Assembly (NCBI RefSeq): GCF_048771995.1
Contig: NC_133024.1
Span: forward strand, 27,730,001-27,794,000
DNA from: Taeniopygia guttata
Taxonomy: Eukaryota > Chordata > Aves > Passeriformes > Estrildidae
Reading direction: 5' to 3'
DNA: 64,000 nucleotides
A program made the translations under genes and the position numbers. Under the pieces are notes generated by a model. That model was not told the origin of the DNA. It worked only from the letters and a program-made list of their open reading frames with translations, and searched no databases. Of this stretch, positions 356-64,000 are shown piece after piece. How positions within the stretch are numbered: position 1 is the first letter of the stretch; each line of letters opens with the position of its first letter.

Positions 356-29312
<28,957 letters not shown>

Positions 29313-32859: not shown

Positions 32860-33560
32860 TGAGGAGCGGCAAAATCAGCGTGGGAGAGGGAATGATGAAC
32901 GCGGTGAGCGAGGGAGTCCGGAGAGGGAGCAGGGCGCTGCGGGGAGAGGCGGCGCGGGGAAGGGAACCCGCAGCGGCTGAGGGCGGCAGCCCTGTCCCCT
33001 CGCGGGGCTGGAACGGAGGCGCCGCTCGCTGAGCAGCGGCTGCAGCCCTTCTGTGCAGGCCGCAGAATAAATTCTGCCGGCAGAGAGTGTCGCTTTCGGC
33101 TGGTTTTGTCTTCAATCAGCCTCGGGGCAGCGCCCATCCCGCTGGGCCACGCTGACCCCCGGCCCGGCTGGGCGGAGCCGTGCCCGGCCGCTCCCGCCCG
33201 CCGCGCCCCGCCCGCGGGCTCCAGCCCGGGCCCGGCACCGCCCCGGCACCGCCCCGGCGCTCCCGAGGGGCAGCCCCGGCCGGAGCGGAGCGTAGCACTG
33301 CTGCTGCTGCCATGTTGTGCGGGGGTGCCTCGGCGGCCCGGCCCGCCACCGAGGAGACGCAGCGGATCGCGGAGCAGGTGAGCGGCCGGGGCGCGGCCCG
33401 GGAGGGTCCCGCAGGCGGGGAAGGCCCGTGCGGGGCCCAGCGTGTGCTCGGCCATTGCTCCGCGGCTGAACGCCGAGACACCGCCCCCGGTGTTAAGGGG
33501 GGAAGGCATGGGGAGTGCGCGGAGCAGCCGGCGGCTCCCGGAGCTCCTTCCCTGTGCCCG
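32860..33560 (+). promoter_or_regulatory. CpG island promoter of the stefin B-like gene
   Basis: An abrupt rise in G+C and CpG, with GC boxes (for example GGGCGG at 33170-33175, and CCCGCCC and CCGCCCCGG runs between 33190 and 33260), immediately before and over the first coding exon. No TATA box sits at a suitable distance. This fits a broadly expressed housekeeping promoter; the start site is probably within 33200-33311. Confidence 0.8.
33312..33377 (+). CDS. CSTB: Stefin B-like exon 1
   Basis: 22 codons, [20 protein letters not shown] plus EQ, then a GTGAGC donor. The ATG follows CTGCTGCTGCC in the CpG island. Phase 0 junction. Confidence 0.95.
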
Positions 33561-36500
33561 CCTGGCTCCGAGGGACCGTGGGCAGCGCGGGGAAACTCGG
33601 CAGAGCCATTGCCTTGAGCTCGGGGAGCGAGCTCCTGTGCTGCTTACAGAATCTGTGCATGCGTTTGGGGTTTGGGTGTTTGTTCTTTGCCTGGGAAAGG
33701 GGGGATTGTTTGTTGTATTTATTTTTGAGGGGGTGAAACGTGGAATAAGCAAGAAAGCTCTTCGCTGCGTTTGCTTTTCCCCAACACAGAATTCAGCACC
33801 AAATCCTGATACTACTTACAGTACCTGAGATTACTGCTCGTGTTATTGGAGCAAATGCTTTTACTCTAAAAACGCCATCGTGCAACTAAGTTCTTTCAAA
33901 CCACACGTTCTTCTTTTTGTCATGGAAACTCAAGTTCCTTCTGCTTTTTGCCTTTATCGGCTAAGATATGGTAATCTAGAGAGCAAAAATTAAGGATGCG
34001 CTCCAGCTTCTGACACTTTGTCATTGCCTGGGCCTGTTCCCCAGGCAGGAGGAGTTCCCAAACACATACAGAGCACCCAGAGGCACAACAGCTACTGAAA
34101 TTAACGTTTGCCTTGTACAGTCTGAGGATTCTGTGTTTTAGGAAAAGGGAGAAATGTGCATCTCCTAAGCACCAGCCTGAGTTTGCAGTAATAAGCACAT
34201 AATTGAGAATTGCTGAGAGTTGCAATTATTGCTTTGACCTGAAAAGGCTTACATGTCATGTTAAAGGTAATGCAGATATGCAATTAACATGGGCTTAAAA
34301 CTAGGTTTGAAATCCTGACTTTCTGTTCTCTAGCACACTGCAGTGGTTTGGTAATCCAAAAACAAAATCCTGTTGGATTCAGAAGTGAGCAGAATTAACA
34401 AAAAAACTCGTGTTTTCATTTAAATCACCTAAATACTTTTAAAGTTTATCCAGCTTGGTTTGACTGCCAGTTTAAATTACTTCCTTTAATGAAATACAGG
34501 TGGGAAAACTCAAACTTGAAACTTGCCCATGCACTCATATCCTCATCTGGACACTGCTGGAGAAAACATTAGTTTTGTTAAATCGAGGTAGCCTTCTCAA
34601 ATAATTTTGTTTGTTTAAAGTCAGGTCTTTTTGGAAATTTATTAGAGCCTGCCAGTTTGCTTGCCATAAACATATTCCCTGTTCCTGCTTTTCCAGTTCT
34701 TGCTTTCATTTTACAGTTTCATAAGAATCCTTGTGATGGCCAAATGTTGTTCAGTTTTGTGACCCACAGTGGGTGTAGTGTCACACAGGGCAGGAAGGCT
34801 TCCTTTGGCAGTGTCTGTCTTAGGAATAATCCCATAGGAACAGCTTCCTCACGACAGGGATTTCCACACAGGCCTGTTCAGCTTTGGCTCCTCACTGGTA
34901 ATTGTGGCAGAGCTTGTCCAGGGTGATTGTGAGCCATCTGCTTTTTATTTAACTGCTCTGGCAGTGCAGGGCAAATAGGCCATGCAGGGCAGTGGAGAGT
35001 CTTCAGGGCATGATCATTTCCAGCCCTGTGACTGAATCATGGATTGTTTGGGTGGGAAGGGACTGCACCTCCTGCATGAGCACAGGGTCAGCATCCTCAG
35101 GCTGCTCACAACTTTGTCCTGTCAGTCTTGAAAACTTCCAAGGATAGACTCCTGCTGTAGTGCAGTCCTCAGGGGAAAGGTTTCTCATTATATCCAGCCT
35201 GAACCTCCAGTTTCAGTTTATGACCACTGTGTCTCATTCTTCTGCCATGTGGAAAGTTTCGTCCCTGTAAAGACCCTGGCCTCTTGTAGGTACTGGAAAG
35301 TTTTCTTCAAAGCTTTCTCTTCCCTGAGTAAGCTCATGTTCTTCCTCTCCTCACAGCACAAGTGCTCTAGCCATCCTGGTGTGCTCATGAGTGCTCCTGG
35401 TGACCCTTCACTGGGTTCACTACAGTTCATTGGTGTCTGGCTTGTACTGGGGGCACATTTTCTAACAAAGGCCGAGTAAAGGGTAATAATCACTCACCTG
35501 TCTTCTGGCTAGGCTCCTGTTGATGCAGCCCAGTATGCCATTAACTTTGTACCACTAGGACACAGTGCTGGCTCCTGTCCTCCAGGATTCCCAAATCCAG
35601 ACAGAGATCAAGAACCAGGTCTTTGGGAGAGTATTTCTGTCTGGGATCTCCCTCTGCACCCTGAGGCAGGATGCTGGTTTGTCACATGCTGTGGTGACTC
35701 ACAAACACCCTGATAAGCTTGCAGCTGCAGGACTCTGAGCTGTCTGTAGCCAGGGTCCAGTGTTCAGCTTCCTGATGGAAATACAAAATGTGCTGAGCTG
35801 GAGTGATTGAGTGACCTCAGAAACCAAAGCTGCCCAGTGCCTAAGATTGCTAAAGGAGCACAGGACAGGACAGGGCCAGTGGGAGACCTGTGTCTGCCCT
35901 GCTGCTTAAAATTTGTAAAAGTGTGATGAAAACTGAGCACTTGCTCCAACCTCTGACTCGGGAAAAGGGGAGGAGGCAGGAGTGAATCATGGTGTTTCTT
36001 CAGGTGCATCTTAGAATGCAGCTTGGATTTCCATATGGTAAAGAACAAACAGGAAAGTGTTCAAACATCATTATCTTGCTTGTGACGACATACTGATCAT
36101 AACCTGGAGGAAGTGTAGAGGTATGGCCTCTGAGAGAAGATAAAAAGCATGGACACAGCTCTCAGGGACAGGATGGTCTCTGAAAAGGCACCAGAGTTCT
36201 GGGAGTTGGAGAGGTGGGAGAACACACCCCGTTGCAGGAATGGTTCTTCTGTTCCTGCTTCACCTACAGCACCTGACCAGTGACAAGCTGGCACTTGTTT
36301 TTCCCCAAGGAAGCCTGGGGGATTTAGGCAGGAGTGCAGATGTATCTATTTTCCTTGAATTTAGGAAAAGGAGAAGTACCCCATATAGCTGGAGGATCTA
36401 CTCATTGCTGGTACCACTGCCTTGGGAGTGAAGGGAGGGCTGTGCAATGATGCAGTGCAGGAGGTGCAGCCTGGAGCAGGCAAGGACTTTCAAGCAAGGA

Positions 36501-37596
36501 CTCTTAAGACGAACTCATCTTGGCTTGCAAAACAAAGGCTGAAATCTGCTTTCCTGACTAAGATTTTTCCATACAGCCACAATGTGCTAGAGTGCCCAGT
36601 GCAGGAGAGAAGAGCTGCATCTCAGGAGTTCATGGCTCCCTCTTGGGTACTGAACAGGTTATTTTGACTTCTTGAGCACTGTTTTGCAATTTGAAAACAC
36701 AGATTCCAGCAGACACGCTGAAAGAACTGTCAAGTGTTTTCCAGACTTGGTGTCAGCCTATAGTGACTGACTCCCAGCTCTGACTCAGTTTGCTACCTCT
36801 GTAGATTCCTGGTCCTGCTCTCACACAAAACTTAACATGATTCATTTTGATCTTTTGATGTCTTAGGAAAAGTGGTAACTCTGTGTCTGGGAATTCAGCA
36901 GCAGTGAACTGTAAGCCTTAAGTCCTAAATACTTGAATCTTGCATCAGCCTTAAAGAATCTATTGTTTCCTTAAGGTAAAAGCTCAGCTAGAAGAAAAAG
37001 AAGGGAAGACCTTTGATGTCTTCACTGCAGTGGAGTTTAAAACTCAGGTGGTTGCTGGAACAAACTACTTCATCAAGGTAGAGCAACAACAACCTGGGTT
37101 GTTTCTTTTCTATTAATGTGTATAATCTTTGGAATGGTGGGTTTTTCCCTTTCTTAACTAGAGGAGAATGTTTATAATTTGACCTTAATAAGAAAAAAAA
37201 TTGTACATTAAAAAGCCACAAATATCCACCTCCCAGCCCTACTCCATATCTGTTAAACAGAGAGATCATCTTTTCTCCATTTTCATGGGAAGATTAGGTG
37301 GTATTTCTGCAAAGTCATGGCTCCTAGTCCGGTTTGAAACAAGCCAGTGGTTTTTTCTTACTGCCTGTGTGCTGCTCCATCCTCGAACCAGCACAGCCTC
37401 TGCCACCCCTCCTGCTGCAGGTTGCTCTTCCTGCAGGGATCTTCTCACTGGGTTTCATGCTTTGCAGGTCCATGTTGGGAATGAGGAGTTCCTGCACCTG
37501 CGGGTGTTCAAGAGCCTCCCCCACGAGAATGAGCAGCTGAGCCTCCACAGCTACCAGGGCAGCAAGACAAAGCATGATGAACTGGCTTTTTTCTAG
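33312..37596 (+). CDS. CSTB: Stefin (cystatin B-like), complete
   Basis: Cytosolic single-domain inhibitor of papain-like cysteine proteases (cathepsins B, H, L, S). Three exons (33312-33377, 36976-37077, 37468-37596) encode 98 residues, the stefin length, with no signal peptide. The three inhibitory elements are present: N-terminal Gly4-Gly5 (MLCGG), QVVAG at 46-50 and the LP hairpin at 73-74 (SLPHEN). Sequence is much closer to human CSTB than CSTA: Cys3, [22 protein letters not shown], and a KHDEL stretch near the C-terminus. By position, however, this is the interval that holds CSTA in human, so databases may name it CSTA. Its neighbour at 38623-45733 is the A-like copy, transcribed toward it. 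Confidence 0.95.
33378..36975 (+). other. Stefin B-like intron 1
   Basis: 3.6 kb intron. It holds a minus-strand CR1 remnant at 35026-35620. The rest has no recognisable feature. The acceptor is TTGTTTCCTTAAG. Confidence 0.8.
35026..35620 (-). mobile_element. CR1 LINE remnant, minus strand
   Basis: Starts with the complement of the CR1 3' tail (CTGAATCATGGATTGTTTGG). It continues with complements of the ORF2 end: 'ttatatccagcctgaacctc', 'tctcctcacagcacaagtgc' and TTGATGCAGCCCAGTATGCC. Diverged, with small gaps, and 5'-truncated. It lies antisense in intron 1. Confidence 0.88.
36976..37077 (+). CDS. CSTB: Stefin B-like exon 2
   Basis: 34 codons, [16 protein letters not shown] through [11 protein letters not shown], with GTAGAG as donor. 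It carries the first inhibitory hairpin. Phase 0-0, the usual stefin structure. Confidence 0.95.
37468..37596 (+). CDS. CSTB: Stefin B-like exon 3
   Basis: 42 codons plus [23 protein letters not shown] through KHDELAFF. It carries the second hairpin and C-terminal strand. The acceptor is CATGCTTTGCAG. Confidence 0.96.
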   Translation, partial: VHVGNEEFLHLRVFKSLPHENEQLSLHSYQGSKTKHDELAFF

Positions 37597-38268
37597 CAAC
37601 CTTCTCTGCTGTGTTTCCCTCGCTGGTTCTTATGTGCATTTTCTACAGGCTGCAAAATGTTGAGTCCTGTGCCAGCAAAGGTGGAAAAATGTGTCTTTTT
37701 TTTTTTTTTTTTTATCATGGTGGAAAAATCAATTTCTTTTATGCCATTCTCTTCCTGTGCAATCTCCAAACCTGAGAGTCACAGGGTTCTCCTATTACCT
37801 GCACTAATGTAAATCCTACTTTTATTGCAACTTAACTTAGGCTTTAGTGCAACTTAATGAGAATACTGTTTGTGGACTTCCTTGGTCTGGAAATCAGGAG
37901 GGGAATGACACCAGTACTCATATATTTGCAGCAAGGAACAAAAGAAAAGCCTCGGTCTTTTCTGTGTTGTTTTGCAATTGTGAATATATGTGGAGATTTA
38001 AATTGTACTTTGTATTTTATGGGCAAAGACCTGATGAGAGACTCGAGCTGAAGCAATTTTGTAAGGAAGAGAAAGAGGCTTACAGTAGCTTGAAACAAAC
38101 ATTCCCTTGGTAATCGTGCTCATCTTCTTGCAGCAGTAGCATGTAATGTCCCGTAGAGGGTGTGTGAGTTTAAAATACCAAACCAGCTTGCTTATGATCT
38201 TGGTCCTATGGAAAAGTCCTGGCAAGGAACTTAAGCTGGATGAGCATTTATGCATTTTTAACAATAAA
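37597..38268 (+). other. CSTB: Stefin B-like 3' UTR and poly(A) signal
   Basis: About 670 bp after the stop, containing an 18-base T run at 37696-37713. AATAAA is at 38263-38268, the first good signal downstream. Confidence 0.8.
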
Positions 38269-38352
38269 CATTTCTTTTGACTTGAGATGGCATCTTTGAC
38301 TGGTGCTTTAGTGTTCTCTTCTTTGGTTTTCACTATTGGTTATTATCTTGCT

Positions 38353-38414
38353 CAGCTTTTTTCCTTAAGTTTTTTTATATTCCAGCTTTTTTCCCTTAAG
38401 TATTTTTTATATTC
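38353..38414. repeat. Tandem duplication, about 31 bp x 2
   Basis: CAGCTTTTTTCCTTAAG followed by a T-rich tail and ATATTC occurs at 38353-38382 and again, with two inserted bases, at 38383-38414. It lies between the convergent poly(A) signals of the two stefin genes. Confidence 0.85.
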
Positions 38415-38541
38415 CAGGTAAGGTTATGTTTATTCTATGTCTTAATTAGAAATACTTTGTTTTAGTCTTGTGACAGACAGGAAAGATAACTAGACCCTTG
38501 CAGGTATATCAGCAGCAAAAGGAAAATACGGACATTATTAT

Positions 38542-38560
38542 TTTATTTACTTATTTTATT
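38542..38560 (-). terminator. Stefin A-like poly(A) signals (two)
   Basis: TTTATT on the plus strand at 38542-38547 and 38555-38560 gives two AATAAA hexamers on the minus strand, 63-83 bp after the stop codon of the A-like stefin. Confidence 0.8.
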
Positions 38561-38622
38561 TACTGTCATGGGCAGAATCCCCATAGGATTTGCAGAGGTG
38601 AGGCACTGCAACACATCATGTC

Positions 38623-38751
38623 TTAGAAGTAGGTCAGAGGGTCATCTCTGGTTTTGCCAGTCTGAAAACCAACAAGGCTGGGACCTGTGTTCTCATGAGG
38701 AAGACTCTCAAACACCTTTAAGTGGACATATTCACCATCAGAAACTTGGAC
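38623..38751 (-). CDS. CSTA: Stefin A-like exon 3
   Basis: 42 codons plus TAA (38623-38625): VQVSDGEYVHLKVFESLPHE, then a tail ending DDPLTYF. The acceptor on the minus strand is TTTGGTTTCTAG. Confidence 0.93.
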   Translation of the reverse strand, partial: VQVSDGEYVHLKVFESLPHENTGPSLVGFQTGKTRDDPLTYF

Positions 38752-41700
38752 CTAGAAACCAAAAGAATAGGCAAGTGAGGATCATGGGCTCAAAGCAGGT
38801 TCAAACAAAAGGCTGTTCTTTACATTTTTGAAAGAACATCTTTGCTAGGATCTTAATTTTAGATGTACCTTCATTTTTACTTCAACAGCTCTTATCAAAG
38901 TCTGGATAGTAACTGGTGGCAGAAACTGTCTGCATCTGTAGAAAACTATTAAAAACCCTCAGACTCAGGTGAAGGGAGAATGAGCAGAACTGCTTGGGTG
39001 TGGAAGCACCAGAAGATGCAACAGGAGACAGGTTTTGATGGTGTCCTATTTCAGTCACCAGGATGGCAGCACGTTTTCTCACAACCTCCTGAAACACTCG
39101 TAGGAGACAATGAGGAAACCTCCATGATTTGGGGGTGGGACACAGTGCAAACACCATGTCAGCTCCCAAAGGGTACAGAAAGATCTAATACATAAAGACC
39201 TGCACATGGTCCTGAGAAGCAATGACAACCTGAAAGCCAGGATCCCTGGTCTGCAGAGTTATTCCAAACACACCAGTGCCTGAACAGGGAACCTGATGTA
39301 CCCCAGTGCTTTTGGGAGTGCATGGGAGTGCCTGCAATAAATACTCTTACAAAGAAATTTGTCTTCCCTCCTAGAAAGTCCTCACATAAAGACTTGGTAG
39401 GAAGCTGTAAAATTTCATTCTTAGAGAGCCAAACACAACAGGTGCCAAACTCTCCCTCAGTGAGGAACACGGCAACTTTAATGCCGGAGGCTCCAAGAGG
39501 TTTTTACGTGCTTTGTGGTGGCTGCAGTGGGGCACTGTGCTTGGTCTGGGTTGCAGCTCAGCTGTAAGTCTGCTGGTAAAACATCAGTGAGGTGGAAGAT
39601 TCAGAAATATAAAAGAATTAATCTTGTTAAATGCTAAAATGAGGAACTGTTTTCCATCACTGGTAAAATTCGGAAAGAAGAGACAAATCATCCATTTCCA
39701 GTGTTACAAATGGATTTCTTCAAAGTTCAGTAATACATCAATCTTTGTTTCTGAGTTAAGAGTTCTTTTAAGGAAGCACCTGGGAAAAACGAAGGTTTGG
39801 CAGCACCTGTCCTTCCTGATATCAACTAAGTATGAGAAGTGTGGAGCTAATGCTCACAGTGTCTCTCTGCAGAATTACTCTCCCCCAGATTTTACAGGCC
39901 AATTCCTCTAATAAATTATTCCCATTCCCTTGGAATATGACATACCCTGTCAGGCGCATGCCCACACATACATGTGAGGTTTCAGCAGTCACAGGCCATG
40001 CCTGCTCTGCTCCAAAGGCCAGCCTGCTGCTCAGCAGTGCTTGCTGGCCTTCAGAGGAAAAATACCCCCAGCCGTTTCTTCTGTGCTACTTCACAGAAAG
40101 CTGCTCACATCCATCGGTCAGGGTTTCCAGTAGAGAAGGAATGGTGCTATCAGAGGGCTCCAAATTAAGCATTACCCATTTTTTCTCTGCAGCAGAGAGG
40201 GGGTTTTGAAAATACAGAAAGAACCAGCAGGCAGGCTGTACCTCTGCAGCACCTGACACAGAACCAAAACATCAACACACCTACTTGCATGCAAAACTAG
40301 CCAGCAGATGTGTGCACTGCATTACAAAATTGACTCTATTTTTCCATCAGTTCCTTAAGCTGATTTCAATTTCATCCCATCAAACACAACTGAAGGACTC
40401 GGATATTATTCTGCCTTGAAAGGAAACAGGAGACTAGTTATACTCATTGAAATAATTTGAGTTGGGAAAGCAGTCTATAGTGCTTGAGGGGGATGATCCC
40501 AAAAAGCTTACCAGTCACATCTAAATAAGCACAGCAATTTTTTTATATTTATATTCCTGCTTACAGTAGTGCCAAACAGAGGAATTTAATAAGCATTTGG
40601 AGGTAGTCCCCACTTCTGTTACTCAGACAGTTTCCTATTATGTTTGCTCTCTTTCTAGCTGTAAGCCACTCTGCCAGTCACCTGTATAATTTCATTCCAA
40701 AACACTCCTACAAGATATACAAACCTTAATAAAGTACATGGTCCCAGCAACCACTTGAGTCTTATATACTATGGCTGTAAAGTCAGCACAGTTCGTGTTT
40801 GCCTGGCTTTGAAACTGTGGCTTCACCTGTAAAAAGAAAGGGAAAAATGATTGGCAGGTTGATACTTGGGGATTTTTTTCACATATACAACTCCAATTTT
40901 CATCCTTTCACACATACTCCCATAACGAATCTCCACAAAGTGACTGAGAGGACCCTCAAACCCCTTGTCCAAATCATCAATAAAGATGTTAATCAGAGCT
41001 GGCCCCAACACGGAGCCCTGGGTGCACCACCTCAGACCAGCCAGATGCAACCACCTCTCCCCGGGCCCGGCCTCCAGCCAGTTTTTTCACCCAGTGAGCA
41101 GTGCATCTGTCCAGGCTTCTTCAGTAGAAAGCTGCAGGAACTGGAGTCTCAGGCTTTACTAAGGTCCAGGGAAACAACATCCACAGCCTTTCCCTCATCC
41201 GCTCAACATGTCATGGAGAGATCAGGTTGGTCAAGCAGAACCTGCCTTGCATGAACCCATCCTGGCTGGGCTTGAATCCGTGGTTGCTGCACACGCTGTG
41301 TGATGGCACTCAGGATGAGCTGTTCCTTGACCTTCCCTGGAACTGAGCTCAGCCTGACAGGTCTGTAGTTCCCTGGATCCTCCTTCCTACCATTCTTGTA
41401 GATGTTCTTTTAGAGGGGCATCAAATTAGCCAAACTCCAGTTGTGTGAGACCTCCCTGATTCATCAGGACCACTGGTAATCCATGGACAATGGCTTGGAG
41501 AGCTCTTCCATGAGCTTCCTCAGTACCCTCAGGTGGATTCCATCCAGCCACATAGATTTACACCTGGAGAAGCAGGTCACTGTTTCCTGCTGGATTGTGG
41601 GAGCTTCGTAGTGTTCCTTGTCTCTGTCTTCCAGCTCAGGGAGCTGGTACCCTTAGGACAACTGGTCTGACTACTAATGATTGAGATGAAGAAGGGTTTA

Positions 41701-44700
41701 AGTACCTCATCCTTTTTTATAGTTTTTTGTGACAATGATTTCCCCAACATCCAGCAAATGATGGAGATTCTCCTTAGCCCTCTTTTTGTTGCTTATGTAT
41801 TCTTAAGAACAGTTTTTGTCATTGCTTTTGGCAGTGAGCAGAGTTAAGTTCTAATAGGGGTTTTGCCTTTCTGACTTTCTACATAACCTCACAACACCTT
41901 TGTAATCCTCCTGAATTGCCTGCCCCATCTTCCATAGCTTATAAACTCTTATCTTTTACCCTGGGTTCCAGCTAAAACCCTCTGTTCAGCCAGTCCAGTC
42001 TTCTTCCCCACCAGCTTGTCTTTTGGCACATGGGGACACCCTGCTCTTGCACCTTTAGGATTTCCTTCTTGAAGAATGCCCAGGCTTCCTGGATCTCTTT
42101 GCCCTTCAGGACTGCCTCCCAAGGGACTCTTTCAACCAGTCTGCCAAAGTCTTCCCTCCAGAAGTCCAAGGTTTTGCTGTTGCTCTTCCTTACTTCTCCA
42201 AGAATTAAAAACTCTCCCATTTCATGATGACTGCATGACCACCACACAGAAAGCAGAGACAGTCCCTCCTAGGCTGGGTGGCGCAGTGCCCCTCTGCACG
42301 TGACACCCACACTGATGCCCGGATGCATTACTGAGTTTGGGCAGAGGAGCAGTGTCAGTGCCAGCCTGCTCAGGCTGCCCTGGGCCAGGCCGGCAGTACC
42401 TCAGTGCTTCTCACCACCCACCTGTTTCACAGGAACCCACTGAATTAATTAACTTTCCCAGCACAAGCACCTACAGCTGGCTGCCACTCCCATGACATTC
42501 CTTCCTAGCGGGAAGGCCACAGAAAGCATCCAAGAAACATCCAGATCATTTCCAAAGAGCCAGAAATTATCATCCTATTCAGCTTCCTCATGATCTCTTA
42601 CCCCGCTCTTCTGCTGAGTAGCTTCCACAGGGTTTCTATCCTCAGGAACAGACAACTATACTTTCAGCTGAAGAGCTGCTAACTGGCAAACCAGGGAAAT
42701 TTTAATTCCCAACAACCTTCCAGCTGACTGGGGCAGGGGCCTCCTAGAATGCGCCTAAGTAGCAACTTTTGGTGCATGATATTCCTCTCTCGGAATAAAA
42801 CAAAACAAAGTCACTTCTCTCCAGTTTTGCTCTCTCTCCTTTGACCACTATATCCCCTATTTGTTATTTACAAGCTGAGCCATCAGTAAAATCAAGAAGG
42901 AAAACAGTGCCTTAATCCTCTGGTGAAAAAATGTAACATTCCTAGCTCTTATCTAACAGCATCCTAAACCCAACACATTCCTCAGTTTTGGGCAACAGCT
43001 GTAAAACAGGGAGACCAAATAAATAACATTCCTCAGCTCACTAATGATGGCTAGATACAAGGCACAGGTATAAGTAAATAATTGTGTAATCCCATGAGCA
43101 GACAGACCTTGGCATCCCAAGTTCTGCGAATGCTTCTCACAACTTCACTGAAATCATAGGAATTGCTTCCCTGCTCAGCAGAGCATAAAAGCCCCCAGAA
43201 ATGCTTCATGAAATAGTGACACCTATGCTGGAAGGACTGCAGGATTTCCCCAGCACAAGGTTTCCACAAGAATATTTTCCATAGACAACTGTACCAAAGC
43301 CTCTGGAAAGGGGGAAAGAGCAGGAAGTGTTCTCTCTCCTGCTCTCAGCACAGGGCAGAAATTTCACCTTGAAGAAAATAAAGAGCAGAGAACAATCTGT
43401 ATTCATTTTCCTGAAGTTACTGAGAACAAAAGAACACTAAAATTAGGATCAGTCCTTTTCTGGAATCAAACAAACTTTGCACTATCCACATTTCAGATTC
43501 CGTATATACCCTGTATTCTGGGGGCATTAACACTGCCCGAAACCAGCATTCACATTTTCAAGTGCCTGTTTGCTCACAGACACCCAAGTGCTGTGGTTAC
43601 ACCTCCAATACACACTGCAAGACTTCTGATGACCCATAAATAACACAGCACAGCATTGAAAATGAAGCTCAGTATCTAGTATGGTGCTTGAGGCATTTTA
43701 CAGACTCATAAATTAAATTTCACAGCCCTCAGCTGGCCCCATCTTAAACATGAGGAAACAAGAATGGCAAATACACAAAGGTGCTACAAGTCCCTTGCTA
43801 GGGTCTTCCCTCCATAGGTAAAAGGGAATTTCTGATCTCTGCAAGTGCTGTTCTTTCAAACATTCCTGCCAGCATAGAAGGAAGAGTTGTACTGCTCCAA
43901 AGTAATACAGTTAGTGCCTCCCAAACAACTGTAGATCATTCATTTCTGCTCTGCAGTAAATCCATTTGTTCTCTGCAGTAAATCATCTCTGACTAACCAG
44001 TTACCCCAGACTCCAGCCCTCCCACATGTACATGTCCCAAACTCTGGTGACCCCAGCTGTGACTGACCAATAAAGCCCTGTAATGGAAGAAGGCTCAGAG
44101 GAGCTGGGGAGGGTGATGGTTCCACCCATGAAATTCAGGGAATAATGCAGGGTGTCACTGATCACAGCTTTTGCAAATGAGCTGACTTTATCTCAACACA
44201 AAGGCTGGCCACAGGGTGTTTTTGATAAATAGCTCTGTCAGTGGAGGGGACAATGTGGTGGCATAACTCCCCGAGTTCAGTAAGAGAAAGCGAACATGCC
44301 CCTGAGTTAGCCAGACCAGCATGTGGGGAGTGAACACATGGCTCTGCCCAACTCTGAGTATAAAAACTAAATGGTTGGACAAAAGCATTTTGAAGAAAAC
44401 TGCTGGCTAGAGCTGACTTCAACCCACATCCCCCTTCCCAGTGATTGAGGATGTCCAGTGTGGTGACACAGAGGGTGTTATACACCAGGAGTGCAGATCA
44501 CGCTGATATCCTCAGAGAACTGGGTTTGCAGTCGCTACATTTTGCTAAGAGTAACTCAGACCTACATCAAGTTGCCAGCATATTTGTATCACTCTGCTCA
44601 ATCAGACACATGGAGTAACATGGAGTATCTTCTAATCAGTAAACTGGATGTTAAAGTTATCCCCTCCATCTGTAGACTATGGAAAAGAGCCCTGTCAGAA

Positions 44701-45733
44701 TACTGGGCTGCCTGGTCTCAGTTGTAAGATCATGGAAGATGTGGAAGGATGCTGGATCGAAGGATGTGCAGACTCTGTCCTCAGTGGCATAGCAAAGGAG
44801 AGAGCTGGGAGCCCTGCACATCAGGTATAGTGAGTGTGCTGCAGTGTTGCCAATGCATTCAGCCCTGCTACTTCCTGGTTTTGTCTTCTCAAAGAGTTCC
44901 CGAGTACAATTGCCAAAGGGACAAGAGCTCATCTTTCAGAGGCAGAAGAGTGAAGACAATTGGGTGGGTGGGTGGAAACCCCTTTCATTCCTCAGGATGC
45001 ATTTTGTACTTTCATTGAAAAGAGCTGCTGCACTACAGGGCATTAGAGGATCACATCTGTGTGAGGTGCTGCTCACACAGCTCTCCAGTTCAGGACCACT
45101 GCCTATAACCAACCACCTGGCACCTGGGCTCACTTAGTGGCCTGCCTTGTGCCAAGCTCATCTTGCCCCAGCAGCAGCCCCTGTATCACAGCTGTGACTC
45201 TAGAAAACACATAATGCCAGCAGGGAACACACAATTTAAAAGCTTTGTCCTGCATTTATAATTCTTTACTGCATACTAGCATCTGGTTTGTCCTATGCAG
45301 TCCTTCACTGAGGAATTAACTCTATCAGGTACAACCTTTTCCCTTCCAATATGCCACCTCTCATTTCAAACAAGTGACCTCACTGCTGGCATAGCAGAGC
45401 TGGGCTTGGAACTTCACACAGACATTAACTGAAGGGAGCCAGTACCATGCCTGGCCATGGACAGAGGAGACAGAGAAGTGGTTTGTCTCAGTCTTACCAA
45501 GGCACTTCCTAAATAGAATGCTGAGAAAACACTGCCAGTCGAGGGGATTCCCACTTTCAGCATGAGCTTCTTCAGTTTAAAACCTGTCTCAGTCTCCCAG
45601 GCTTTACACAAGCTTCAGAAATAGCATCTTTGCACACAACTTAATCTAGAGAGAGGGTGCAACTCACCTGGTTAACAAGCTGCTGAATTTCTGGAGTAGC
45701 TGGCTTGGTCTCAGATAAACCCCCAGTCATCAT
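38623..45733 (-). CDS. CSTA: Stefin (cystatin A-like), complete, minus strand
   Basis: A second stefin gene found by reading exons on the minus strand. Exons 45668-45733, 40725-40826 and 38623-38751 have correct splice sites and phases. They encode 98 residues with the same 22/34/42 codon split as the B-like gene. Exon 1 reads MMTGGLSETKPATPEIQQLV, close to human CSTA (MIPGGLSEAKPATPEIQEIV). Inhibitory elements are N-terminal GG, QVVAG at 46-50 and LP at 73-74. The start has a strong context (GCCACCATG). Divergent points are a loss of the usual LEEK charge cluster after VKPQ, a Cys at 35, Met52 where stefins usually have Asn, and DDPLTYF at the end. All reading frames are open, so it is probably functional. 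It is convergent with the B-like stefin. Confidence 0.92.
38752..40724 (-). other. Stefin A-like intron 2
   Basis: 2.0 kb intron between the second and third exons of the A-like stefin. The donor is GTTTGT. No repeat or other feature is recognised. Confidence 0.8.
40725..40826 (-). CDS. CSTA: Stefin A-like exon 2
   Basis: 34 codons: VKPQFQSQANTNCADFTAIV, then [14 protein letters not shown]. The acceptor TTCTTTTTACAG and donor GTTTGT are good. YKTQVVAG identifies it as a stefin. Confidence 0.93.
40827..45667 (-). other. Stefin A-like intron 1
   Basis: 4.8 kb intron. A 1.4 kb CR1 body occupies the end near exon 2 (40866-42250). The remainder (42250-45667) shows no recognisable repeat or exon. 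Confidence 0.8.
40866..42250 (-). mobile_element. CR1 LINE, internal ORF2 segment lacking its 3' end
   Basis: Minus-strand CR1 ORF2, about 1.4 kb. From the 5' side it includes the spacer after the endonuclease (G-E-V-R near 42185; QEAWAFFKKEILKVQEQGVP near 42050) and then the reverse transcriptase (plus-strand complement of YRPVSLT near 41345-41375; GSVLGPALINIFIDDLDKG at about 40965-41020). It stops shortly after that motif, before the FADD box, so the catalytic end and 3' UTR are absent. Stops and indels make it inactive. Confidence 0.93.
45668..45733 (-). CDS. CSTA: Stefin A-like exon 1
   Basis: 22 codons, MMTGGLSETKPATPEIQQLV plus NQ, with GTGAGT as donor. Two adjacent ATG codons occur; the first aligns with the human start and has the GCCACC context. 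Confidence 0.94.
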
Positions 45734-51709: not shown

Positions 51710-59362
<7,653 letters not shown>

Positions 59363-59670
59363 CCTGGATCGGCCGAGGGAGCCGCGGCGCCCAATCCGGC
59401 GGGGAGCCGGGATGACGCGCGGGGCGGAGCGGGGCGGGACCCGCCGGAGCGCGGCCCCCGGCGCAGCGGCCCCCGGCCGGGCATCGCCACCGGCAGCGGC
59501 CTCGCGGCCCCTTCTCCTCCTCCGGCCGCTGCGAGCGCTCCGGCCGCCCCCAGCGGAGGCGGTGCCGGCCCGGCGGCCCCGAGCGCCCCGCGGCGCGGCT
59601 CCCGCCAATCGCGGGCCCGGGGCGGGGCCCGGCCGTGACATTGAGCTGCGCCCGGCGGGCCCGCAGTGCC
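59363..59670. promoter_or_regulatory. Divergent CpG-island promoter, MIX23 / FAM162A
   Basis: 308 bp separate the two start codons. Very CpG-rich and without a TATA box. CCAAT boxes lie at 59391-59395 and 59605-59609, and a CRE-like TGACGC at about 59413. The island runs roughly 58880-59900 and covers both first exons. One promoter for two mitochondrial proteins is inferred from the geometry. Confidence 0.85.
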
Positions 59671-59686
59671 ATGTGGGGCCGCGCCG
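59671..59686 (+). CDS. FAM162A: FAM162A exon 1 (coding part)
   Basis: ATGTGGGGCCGCGCCG, five codons and one base, with a GTGAGT donor. It is the only ATG close upstream that joins in frame to exon 2. The short coding part makes this the least certain exon. Confidence 0.75.
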
Positions 59687-62600
59687 GTGAGTGAGGGACG
59701 GGGGAGGCGGGGAGGGACCGACCGAGCCCGAGCCCGAGCCCGGGCCGGGGCTGCCGCCGCCGCGCCTCCTCCCCGGGGCCCCGGGCGGCCGGGCCCGCAG
59801 CGCGGGGCGGGAGCCGAGGCGAGCCTGGGGCCGTGTCTGGTGGCCTGGCGGCCGAAACCGTGACGGGAGCGGGGCTGTGCCTCGGCTTCTCTGAAAGGGC
59901 CGGTTTCCTTGGCGGGGTCGCCTGTAAATGTAAATTACTGGCTTTTCGGAGCGGGAGTATATTATTCCGCGAAAGTAAAGGGCCTTAGGAGAGACAGCTT
60001 CAGACAGTATAACAAAGTAAAATAAGAACTCCTTTTATATTTTTAAGTGCCCTTTTTGCCTTTCTGAGATTGGTTGGTTGTTTGGAGTTTTTTTCCCGAA
60101 CTTTTTCATTATATTAATTAATGCATCCGAAGCGCCTACTTTAAAGAATGTGTTCGTATATAAGGTGTCCTGGCTTTTCTAATGTGCTACAAAGTAATTA
60201 CCTCTCAGTGCTAAATAGTCTGCTTTTTTGACTTGACTCTCAATGCTTTTGGGATGTGACAAGATTGGTAGAATGCTGGTGTGCAGTCCTTGAAATAGCA
60301 CCATCCAAAGTGCATCTGAAACATTTGTATAGCTTAGTCCCTGGAAATTGTAATGTTTTAGAAATTGCTAGCAGGACATTATCTTGCTTTTTTTTTTTTT
60401 TTTTTTTCCCTAAATGAATGTAATTGCATTCACATTTTTCTACATATTACTGAGCAAGCTCAAGGCATACCTTATAAGCAAGTTTTCATTGGTAGGCTAT
60501 TACAACTAAATCTGGTATTTCTTGCCTTCACTTGTACCTATTGGTTTTCTTTCTTTTTTTCCTCTTGTGTTAAAAAAAACCCCAAATGCTTCCATTTAAA
60601 AGCTGGTTCCCACTTTCTACTGCTCTGAGTTAAACTTGGCTTTTTTCTTCCTCTGCTTCCTCTTCCAGATAAGGCTGTTAAACTGCTGGGAAGAAATATT
60701 CCCTCAGTTCTGAGGATGACTGAGGGAGTGGACCCAAAGATAAGCAGAAGGCTGTGCATTAAACCCCAGCAAGACCTTCAGTCAAAGCGTAAGAGTCTTT
60801 GATAAAGTCATGGAATGTTTCATGCCACTGAATATTCACATATCCATGCTGCAATCATTTGAACAGGAATTTTGCTGATATAGGTGGTCATATCCCTGAT
60901 TTTGTGAGAGTTCTGGTCTCTAGACTGAAAAAATGGAGCATTAAATTTGGTAAAATCTTGTTTTCTAACAAAAAGACAGGTGTCAATGTTTCCACTTGTG
61001 AGGGTCACACAGCATTCCCTTTGTAGCAGATCACTAGAACCTTATCTAGTGCACACTCCTACACTGAGGCTCCTCAGCTCTGCTCTGGAACTGCTTCTTC
61101 AGACCCACTGTAAACTGTTCGTGTTTAGGAATGTTGTGTAAGCTAAAAGACTTTTGCAGTTTTTTGGAGTGCAGCCAGCTCCAGCTGTTCCAAAAACTCA
61201 GCGTGCCCTGCAGAGAAGAGTCTGAATTGTTCACATTTAAGGGTGGAGCTGGTAAGGGACATCTCAAGCAATTAAACATTTTTTCTCTATTTATGGGACA
61301 GTTTCTGTGCTCCCTGTATCACAGGCTCCTTATGGCCCACCCATGCAGGAAAAAAGGAACATGGAGATGTGAAGCATTTGGCATGACTCTGTGTTAAAAA
61401 CATCAATCAGCTGTACTGGGTAGGACAGAAGGTCTTAAAAATGTGATGTCTCCAGCAGGGGCCAGTAAAGGAAGTCCCTTACATTTGTGTAAAGTGGGAA
61501 TGGTGACCTACAGCAAGAACCTAAGGAAGTGAACAGGAAGAGGGTTCCTCTATATCACTGCCCCAGAGGTGTTTAATAGTCCTCACTGGAATTTTTTTTC
61601 CCCAACAAATTTCCTGAAGCTGGATTAGATGTATTTTTAGTTCCCTAAGAATTTCTTCTCTAAGAAATTCCTCAGCCACAGTCTTGTGTTTGTTTTTTAA
61701 CCCAATGTGCACTTTTTTATAATCTGATTTTCCTTTATTCAGTACCCTTTCCAAACCAAGACCTCATTAAAAACCACACTCCCAATGTCTCTTACAATGC
61801 TCTGCTGGGCTGAAGAGGGCTTCAGTCACTGCTTTTCCAGGCCAAAGGGTCTCAGTCTGTGACACAGTTTCTTACATGGTGTCCATGTGGCTGTCCTTAG
61901 CAGGGTTCTCTGTACCTGTGTTATTTCAGCTCCCTCTGAGCATTTCCCATGCTTTTCAGAAAGCTGGAGTGACAGTTTTTCACAGAGGCACAGTAGTGCT
62001 GCTGTGTTGGTCAGAGTTCCTGATCAGGGACAGTTACGCTGTTTTCCGTTCTGTTGCTTGCCAGAAGCACTGTGGAACCCCAAGGCCTTGCTCAGGCCGA
62101 GGTAATGATTTGTAAGTGAGGGCAGAGTCTGTCACTTGTATATGAACTGGAATTGCTTCCTGTTTATGGCCAAGGGAGTTCCCAGGCCAATTCATTGACT
62201 CCGAGTTCTGAAGCCCCGTGGCATTTTGGGCTCAGCCCTCGTCTTTATGTTTTTGAATAAACTGGTGCTGTCAGCAAACTGTATCCACCCCACTTCCTAC
62301 ATAATTCATGAATCCATGAGGGAGAACATGGCCATACAGGATACTGCCTATTATTTAAAAGGAAAAAGCTGTCTATCTTTGCACTTTGTTTCTTAGATTT
62401 TAATGGTATGTTATATATGAAAAGCTTCCCCTGTTACATTATGGATATTTTGTTTATGGAGTTTGATAGACTGACCTGATAATTATGTGTCCAATCTTTG
62501 CCTATGGTCACCTGTTTACTTTTACCTTCAGATAACATCATACACTGCCTGAAAAAGTTAACATTCTGTGATGTTATATTGGCTTTTTTTGTTATTGTGC

Positions 62601-63076
62601 ATCATGTTGGCTTTTCTGTAGCTGTTCCATTTGGGGTTTTTTTTAACCTTATTCAAATGAAATAGAAAACCAGTACCTTAGGAACCTTAGAAGCTGGAGC
62701 AGCTTCTGCATATTTCGACCTGCAGATACAGAGATTTTGAGAAGGATTTGGCTTTCCTTATATGGCTTCGTTTTAACCCATATTTACACGTTTGTTAATC
62801 TGTGATACAGTTTTAATTCTCTAACCACCTCTAGCAATCATATTTAGAGTTCTGCATTGCTCACCCTAACTGGTTTTGTTACAGTTCTGACCATCCAGCC
62901 TCTCTGACTGTTGTTTTTGGTGGTGTTTTGTTGTTTTGTCTTCGTGTGTTTCGTTGGGTTTTTTTAGGTCGATCTGCTTCGGGAGTGCCTGGATACAAGC
63001 CTACACTCTGGGAGAGAAGGTTTTTGTTGTGGGCAGGCAATTTCAAAAAGCTAGAGGATATTCCAGAAACTGTCTC
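59671..63076 (+). CDS. FAM162A: FAM162A, first three coding exons (partial)
   Basis: Mitochondrial FAM162-family protein; the human form (HGTD-P) is hypoxia-induced and linked to apoptosis. Exons 59671-59686, 60669-60788 and 62968-63076 join in phase and give 81 codons plus two bases; the rest, including the expected membrane segment, lies beyond the window. The N-terminus MWGRADKAVKLLGRNIPSVL is basic and amphipathic, suiting a mitochondrial presequence, but is little like human. Identification rests on exon 3, where YKPTLWERRFLLWAGNFKK and EDIPETVS follow human HKPTDWQKKILIWSGRFKKE and EIPETVS, together with gene order. Transcribed away from MIX23. Confidence 0.92.
59687..60668 (+). other. 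FAM162A intron 1
   Basis: 982 bp. The CpG island extends about 200 bp into it. A 20-base T run is at 60388-60407. The acceptor is CTTCCTCTTCCAG. Confidence 0.8.
60669..60788 (+). CDS. FAM162A: FAM162A exon 2
   Basis: 120 bp, phase 1 in and phase 1 out, encoding DKAVKLLGRNIPSVLRMTEG through RRLCIKPQQDLQSK. The 'C-x-K-P-Q' stretch lines up with human FCTKPQ. The donor is GTAAGA. Confidence 0.88.
60789..62967 (+). other. FAM162A intron 2
   Basis: 2.2 kb, A/T-rich, with no recognised repeat or RNA gene. The acceptor is GGGTTTTTTTAG. Confidence 0.75.
62968..63076 (+). CDS. FAM162A: FAM162A exon 3
   Basis: 109 bp giving RSASGVPGYKPTLWERRFLL, WAGNFKK and LEDIPETVS, ending in phase 2 before GTAAGT. 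This is the most family-specific part seen. Confidence 0.93.
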
Positions 63077-64000
63077 GTAAGTGTTGCTTTTGAAGCTGTA
63101 AAAGAGACTTCATCTATGCAGAAATAAGTTACTTGCATGCAACTCCAGAGTAACTTTTCTAGAAAGGAATGGGTTTGCACAGCTGAAAATCCTTACCCTG
63201 CTGTGTTTGGTGTATCATCCTTGTATATGAAATGATCTCAACAATTCTCTGGTGCTAAGATGATGTATTCCTCTTGATTTTTTTTCCTTTTTTTTGCAAA
63301 GGGTTGACCAGCATTTATCAGTTGTTTCATTAGAAAACCATGTCAGATCAGTTACTTCTCTCACAATCAGAAAGCTTTTTTCAAACATTAGTGTGAGCTT
63401 TTTGTAGTGTTTTTCATTATATGTCAGTCTCTTGCAGTAGTAAACTTTCATATACGGCTATAAAATAACTGAAACTCATATAAAGTATTTATTAATGAAT
63501 ACCTAAAGGGCACAGGCCAACTTCCTTTACTGTTGGAATTTAAACTAACAAACAGTGTTAAGGCTCCCTGACTATACATAGTCAAAACTTCCCTGTTGCT
63601 GCTGAGTCCAAATGTCAAAAGCTTTGTCCCATGTGAAAAGTAGAAAATAAAACTGGATGTTCTGCTTTGGACACCAAAAATAAAGATCAAACTTATCAAC
63701 AATAGACAACTATTAGTCTAGAAAACATTCCTATTGGTAGTATAGTTATCTTTTAAAACATGCTCGTAATACTTTTAAATACATGTATTTATTTAAATTA
63801 AAAAGAAACAGTAAATCTTTCACTACTTGAGTACGAAAATTATGTAGCTGCCCTCTTACATATTTTCTGTTTGTCTGGATGCACCGTGTGGGAATTGAAA
63901 ATCCACCCCTGTATTTAAATGTATCACAGTGAATGAATTTTGTTAAAAGAGGAATCCTTCCATTTTGTACTGAATCTTTTTTCTTAAAACTACATTTGAA
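63077..64000 (+). other. FAM162A intron 3, 5' part
   Basis: 924 bp of A/T-rich intron to the window end. The next exon is not reached. Confidence 0.75.

Follow-up and report, generated by a model that had tools for sequence, protein, structure and literature searches.

The window, a 64-kb stretch of Taeniopygia guttata DNA, carries two stefin genes which, from the reading of their exons, lie tail-to-tail, 33312-37596 on the plus strand facing 45733-38623 on the minus strand (Table 1). As an earlier note on this DNA had claimed, both are complete genes of 98 residues split into 22, 34 and 42 codons: all exons, frames and splice sites could be read accordingly, both genes have their introns following codons 22 and 56, and GT...AG borders were found in 4/4. 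Its statement that the genes face each other with polyadenylation signals about 275 bp apart was likewise borne out, with an AATAAA on each strand (38263-38268 and 38547-38542) and 273 bases between. The pair is flanked by CASR on one side and by MIX23/CCDC58 and FAM162A on the other, and Rfam returned nothing at gathering scores.

Table 1. Features of the stefin locus in the window; the AATAAA and TATATA entries are sequence matches only.
Feature	Position	Strand	Remarks
CASR, 3' part	353-29312	+	ligand-binding stretch 353-1279; seven-helix domain in last exon, ending 29312
CpG island at start of CSTB-type gene	33062-33562		GC 0.768; CpG observed/expected 0.88
Plus gene, best read as CSTB (stefin B) orthologue	33312-33377, 36976-37077, 37468-37596 (including stop)	+	98 aa, intact
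AATAAA polyadenylation signal downstream of CSTB-type gene	38263-38268	+	
AATAAA downstream of CSTA-type gene	38542-38547	-	
Further AATAAA, CSTA side	38555-38560 and 38429-38434	-	candidates alongside 38542-38547
Minus gene, best read as CSTA (stefin A) orthologue	45733-45668, 40826-40725, 38751-38623 (including stop)	-	98 aa, intact
TATATA upstream of CSTA-type start codon	45818-45823	-	about 90 bases upstream; CpG-poor DNA
MIX23 (CCDC58)	51713-59362	-	five exon matches
FAM162A exon	62970-63077	+	

The Pfam cystatin domain is matched by both proteins (81.1 and 67.7 bits; cut-off 22.2), and each displays the hallmarks of a stefin, namely a length of about 98 residues, an N-terminal glycine, the QxVxG loop and an LP in the second hairpin. 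Their alignment with the human stefins begins at residue 1, and they are identical to one another at 49/98 residues. No NCBIfam family was matched by either protein, and a dynein-light-chain Pfam match of the plus protein was disregarded, its 26.1 bits lying below the family cut-off of 29.1. A tblastn search with the two window proteins as queries revealed no third stefin in the 64 kb; a match of human stefin A at 63877-63761 (E 0.006), among the matches listed, was judged to be due to chance, its QVVKD being a QxVxG without the glycine. With the plus protein only as query, relatives on viral contigs amounted to 10 pattern matches, of which 0 were confirmed. In themselves, both genes are ordinary.

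It is scarcely credible that one of the copies, the A-like one being the stronger candidate, is a pseudogene that is not expressed, as the frames are open, the splice sites are canonical at 4/4 introns of both genes, the translations of both copies keep all three inhibitory elements, and CSTA, a match by name alone, is expressed in pigeon crop epithelium. In the list of open reading frames of at least 75 aa, none on the minus strand contains an exon of the minus gene. The suggestion of the earlier note that automated annotation may overlook or merge the A copy found little support, since CSTA is named in a pigeon and a tortoise paper, in both cases matched to the minus gene by name alone.

Judged from the protein sequences, the plus gene is best read as the CSTB orthologue and the minus gene as the CSTA orthologue, because a likelihood test on four proteins pairs the former with human stefin B and the latter with human stefin A, in keeping with the claim of one CSTB-type and one CSTA-type gene. 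In this unrooted quartet of short proteins (the two window proteins and human stefins A and B, under an approximate BLOSUM62-derived model, with human B taken from a crystal structure from which the natural sequence may differ at a residue or two), pairing by type reached -756.61, compared to -769.10 for joining the window pair and -768.96 for the crossed arrangement, and resampling gave 0.98, 0.004 and 0.016 in the same order. Site patterns followed suit, with 7 of the 98 sites favoring pairing by type, 1 the crossed arrangement and 0 the window pair against the human pair. The tree that joins both window copies, which contradicts the claim, was looked for in this same quartet and came out 12.5 log units worse. 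A single stefin duplicated locally in birds only, with copies that later came to resemble mammalian A and B, would account for the adjacency of the two genes; that topology is the one set back by 12.5 log units and by 0/98 sites grouping the window proteins against both human ones, and this origin of the pair is thus very improbable.

A FastTree analysis of seven sequences, 3 of them entered by hand, bovine stefin C included, grouped the minus gene with human A and bovine stefin C (local support 0.99), so that the plus gene fell together with the remaining sequences, three mammalian B proteins. PDB entries 8gqq (cystatin-A2), 9uoz, 5zc1, 6qb2 and others were kept out of the trees. The plus gene groups with mammalian B and with neither A nor its neighbour, and the minus gene with mammalian A.

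In pairwise comparison, the plus protein matched solved human cystatin B (CSTB; PDB 1stf, 2oct) at E 1.8e-40 and shares with it the length of 98 residues, the QVVAG loop and the SLPHEN hairpin; it is identical to human B at 66/98 and to human A at 55/98 residues, and at the 46 sites separating human A from B it carries 18 B and 7 A residues. The minus protein matched solved human cystatin A (CSTA; PDB 1dvc), also of 98 residues, at E 3.6e-31, with identity at 54/98 residues to human A and 50/98 to human B, and both contain the N-terminal GGLSE and KPATPEIQ. Cystatin-A2 (8gqq) was matched at 2e-19 by the minus protein versus 5.9e-12 by the plus protein. Of the 46 separating sites, 15 have the A residue and 11 the B residue in the minus gene, distributed (A/B) as 7/3 in exon 1, 4/2 in exon 2 and 4/6 in exon 3, where 20 of the sites are located. 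Unlike human CSTA, it therefore has B-like residues in exon 3, and since that exon is nearer to B, it is chiefly the first two exons that carry its assignment to the A type.

The surroundings of the pair were counted in favor of the CSTB/CSTA orthologue reading as well, because CASR, CCDC58 and FAM162A are, in the part of the source covered, the neighbours of human CSTA, and the minus gene sits between CASR and CCDC58. The claim that a pair of stefin genes occupies the position of human CSTA hence holds. The plus gene, in contrast to human CSTB, which lies on chromosome 21 and not beside CASR, shares this neighbourhood. It is rather improbable that the plus gene represents an additional copy of the B type, with a separate CSTB orthologue still residing beside PDXK/RRP1 in the bird: the sole stefin match in a search of the genome (1.14 Gb) was the plus gene's exon 2, and any further CSTB resembling it in that exon should have shown up too, even though the search was insensitive and recovered 1/6 of the stefin exons of the window.

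The earlier note had offered two histories, of which the bird-only duplication is strongly disfavored by the evidence above, while an ancestral pair separated in mammals fits and stands unproven. The likeliest course appears to be ancestral linkage, from which CSTB later departed in the line of mammals. The A/B duplication would predate the bird-mammal split and would have arisen locally beside CASR, and CSTB of the mammalian line would later have been transferred to what has become human 21q22.3. Human CSTA, which has no CSTB alongside, presumably runs in the direction of CASR; the bird A copy is then oriented opposite to it, so that at least one inversion is needed. As this history compares two lineages, bird and human, the comparison fits either direction, and CSTB may instead have had its original place next to PDXK/RRP1, where mammals have it, and have joined CSTA in the lineage of birds. 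With local duplication the two genes are neighbours from the outset, and no move to precisely the vicinity of the partner has to be assumed; the move in the bird line is consequently considered unlikely.

Returning to departure on the mammal side, there is about an even chance that the bird locus is the preserved birthplace of the amniote stefin pair, formed by local inverted duplication beside CASR, with mammalian CSTB as a relocated copy in a new regulatory neighbourhood. CSTB is mutated in Unverricht-Lundborg epilepsy. If this is true, this epilepsy gene may have acquired its mammalian genomic context only later, the position of human CSTB would not be universal among amniotes, and a concrete, checkable account of the origin of CSTA and CSTB would be at hand. 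Human chromosomes 3 and 21 have been proposed as joined in the ancestral mammal.

The presence of both types in amniotes is already proposed in a 2009 study (PMC2784779), which, in the text covered, lists both stefin types for amniotes and places the divergence of A and B in the ancestor of amniotes, and the present assignment is in line with it. The location of the two genes is not discussed in the covered text of that study, and 'synten' is absent from its main text. Among the papers listed, judged by titles and abstract openings and with few subscription papers covered, none deals with CSTA and CSTB paired next to CASR in birds, nor was any found on CSTB with PDXK and RRP1 in chicken; the main text of PMC12507687 contains no CSTB, CASR or cystatin.

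Taken as a whole and with its history included, the explanation that bird CSTB and CSTA lie tail-to-tail between CASR and MIX23 as intact cytosolic cysteine-cathepsin inhibitors is considered highly probable. Besides the sequence and neighbourhood evidence, the contrast of the start regions, the published dating of the split, the pigeon crop marker and the proposed joining of human chromosomes 3 and 21 were counted in its favor. By analogy with the established stefin mechanism, each protein is predicted to fold into a sheet that wraps a helix and would plug the active-site cleft of papain-type cathepsins by three elements: the N-terminal segment with its glycine, the QVVAG loop and, with the LP of SLPHEN, the second hairpin. 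The start regions contrast, a CpG island marking the B gene and CpG-poor DNA with a TATA-like element the A gene. From these, expression of the B copy would be predicted in most cells and that of the A copy mainly in cornifying epithelia. In the pigeon paper, CSTA, matched to the minus gene by name alone, is a marker of granular cells in the crop. An 11-mer repeat was also observed 54-81 bases before the ATG of the plus gene, compared to a 12-mer about 175 bp upstream of human CSTB in the covered part of PMC9655992.

In the window, a plus-strand CSTB (stefin B)-type gene and a minus-strand CSTA (stefin A)-type gene, hereafter the plus and minus genes, face each other in convergent layout, and their 3' ends therefore lie near each other. 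Both are complete stefins of 98 residues whose exons are split as the earlier note had claimed, with four of four introns of the GT...AG kind placed after codons 22 and 56 in each gene. Against solved structures, the plus protein is topped by human cystatin B (E 1.8e-40; best cystatin A 4e-31) and the minus protein by human cystatin A (E 3.6e-31; best cystatin B 2.4e-27), which bears out the designation of one B-like and one A-like copy; the Pfam cystatin cut-off is surpassed by both. Permissive tblastn with the two proteins as queries revealed no third stefin in the 64 kb. The facing AATAAA signals, previously placed about 275 bp apart, are separated by 273 bases, and a 32-base unit in about two copies (94% match) occurs between them at 38353-38417.

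Coordinates of the stefin pair, its neighbours and other cystatin loci
Feature	Position	Strand	Basis
Plus gene exons	33312-33377, 36976-37077, 37468-37596	+	spliced translation, complete 98-residue protein
Minus gene exons	45733-45668, 40826-40725, 38751-38623	-	spliced translation, complete 98-residue protein
AATAAA, plus gene side	38263-38268	+	sequence match
AATAAA, minus gene side	38547-38542	-	sequence match
Two additional AATAAA hexamers	38560-38555; 38434-38429	-	sequence match
CASR stretches, upstream of pair	353-1279; 27828-29312	+	match to calcium-sensing receptors
MIX23/CCDC58, five exon matches	within 59362-51713	-	human protein query; Pfam MIX23 2.9e-17
FAM162A exon, beyond MIX23		+	Pfam DUF1075 3.3e-13
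Cystatin-domain matches L002-L006	C11, about 17.99 and 18.03 Mb; C4, about 92.5 Mb		Pfam cystatin model

Stefins are reversible, tight-binding inhibitors of papain-type cathepsins, into whose cleft the N-terminal segment and two hairpin loops are wedged. The translations of both genes retain the N-terminal glycine, QVVAG and the second-loop LP, and on these residues both proteins would be expected to inhibit cathepsins in the stefin manner.

The plus protein is identical to human B at 66/98 positions and to human A at 55/98, while the minus protein matches human A at 54/98, human B at 50/98 and the plus protein at 49/98. Human A and B are told apart by 46 sites; of these the plus gene has the B residue at 18, the A residue at 7 and neither at 21, and the counts for the minus gene are A at 15, B at 11 and neither at 20. 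Exon 3 is the weak point in the A assignment of the minus gene, with 6 B-type against 4 A-type residues at 20 differing sites, an excess that retained ancestral states would explain. A likelihood test on the two window proteins and human stefins A and B, using gamma rates and an approximate model derived from BLOSUM62, favoured pairing by type (-756.61) over the crossed arrangement (-768.96); site resampling gave 0.98 by type, 0.016 crossed and 0.004 for the window pair, and 7 of 98 sites supported pairing by type and 1 the crossed one. The bird-only local duplication entertained earlier is opposed by this test (-769.10 vs -756.61), no site of the 98 joining the window pair. With three further mammalian sequences added, FastTree paired human A and bovine stefin C (local support 0.88) and joined the minus gene to them at 0.99, and the plus gene fell across this split on the side of three mammalian B proteins, themselves separated from the others at 0.84. 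The two genes are best taken as ordinary CSTB and CSTA orthologues. The longer branch of the minus gene (0.37, against 0.19 for the plus gene) parallels the listing of CSTA, by gene name, among fast-evolving genes of turtles in an excerpt of PMC5451010.

The CASR stretches scored higher with PDB entry 7dd5, presumably chicken CASR, than with other receptor entries (657.7 vs 590.4 bits and 1059.6 vs 856.4 bits), and the MIX23/CCDC58 exons were matched with a human query sequence. Together with FAM162A, these flanks are named along with human CSTA in the portions consulted of PMC12869084 and PMC5307362; the pair hence sits in the human CSTA neighbourhood, in line with the CASR-CCDC58 setting proposed beforehand.

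Because the likelihood test opposes a bird-only duplication, both genes are most likely older than the bird-mammal split; Kordis and Turk, in the part of PMC2784779 consulted, place the duplication that gave stefins A and B in the ancestor of amniotes and count each of the two as an amniote family. The simplest reading is that the stefins would have duplicated in place, adjoining CASR, and that CSTB would then have left this neighbourhood in mammals. Human CSTA is oriented like CASR, so an inversion would also be required. The opposite course, with CSTB joining CSTA on the avian branch, is less likely. Mammalian departure of CSTB would be eased if human chromosomes 3 and 21 were joined in the ancestral mammal, a proposal cited without test in a passage of PMC1560138, since both loci may then have shared one chromosome. 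No description of the CSTA-CSTB linkage was found among the papers listed by the literature searches, and the linkage may well be visible already in public genome browsers; as a hint at how the stefin pair evolved it is modest but open to testing.

Searching the genome (1,140,912,852 bases, 41 contigs, the window being C1:27730001-27794000) with the Pfam cystatin model returned six places, one of them plus gene exon 2 and the others divided between C11 (three) and C4 (two). No second CSTB was among these matches, which is weak evidence since the search recovered one of the six stefin exons in the window. At the loci beyond the window, likeness to the two stefins reached at best E 0.21 in tblastn; by eye the C11 frames resemble secreted or multidomain cystatins, with domains like those of the kininogen or fetuin type.

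The CSTB start lies within a CpG island (GC 0.768, observed/expected 0.88), whereas the CSTA start lies outside one (GC 0.449, observed/expected 0.08) with TATATA about 90 bases 5' of the start codon; these start regions predict broad expression of B and tissue-restricted expression of A. By gene name, CSTA is a granular-cell marker of pigeon crop in the text seen of PMC10249823. At 33231-33258, 54-81 bases 5' of the CSTB start codon, the G+C-rich 11-base unit CCCGGCACCGC is repeated 2.5 times (100% match). Human CSTB, as an extract of PMC9655992 describes, has a repeat of 12 bases roughly 175 bp upstream, and epilepsy results when it expands; as the bird repeat differs in both unit and place, it is likely due to chance within the CpG island.

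A further CpG island at the MIX23 start (58700-60200; GC 0.56-0.84, observed/expected 0.81-1.05) is possibly a bidirectional MIX23/FAM162A promoter. Open frames in a CASR intron (20013-20643, +) resemble the C-terminal portion of a reverse transcriptase of the CR1 kind; no Pfam family was found for them. Directly 5' of CSTA exon 2, an open frame (40823-41086, -) encodes the reverse-transcriptase-like peptide GSVLGPALINIFIDDL and is probably a fragment of a CR1-type retroelement in CSTA intron 1.
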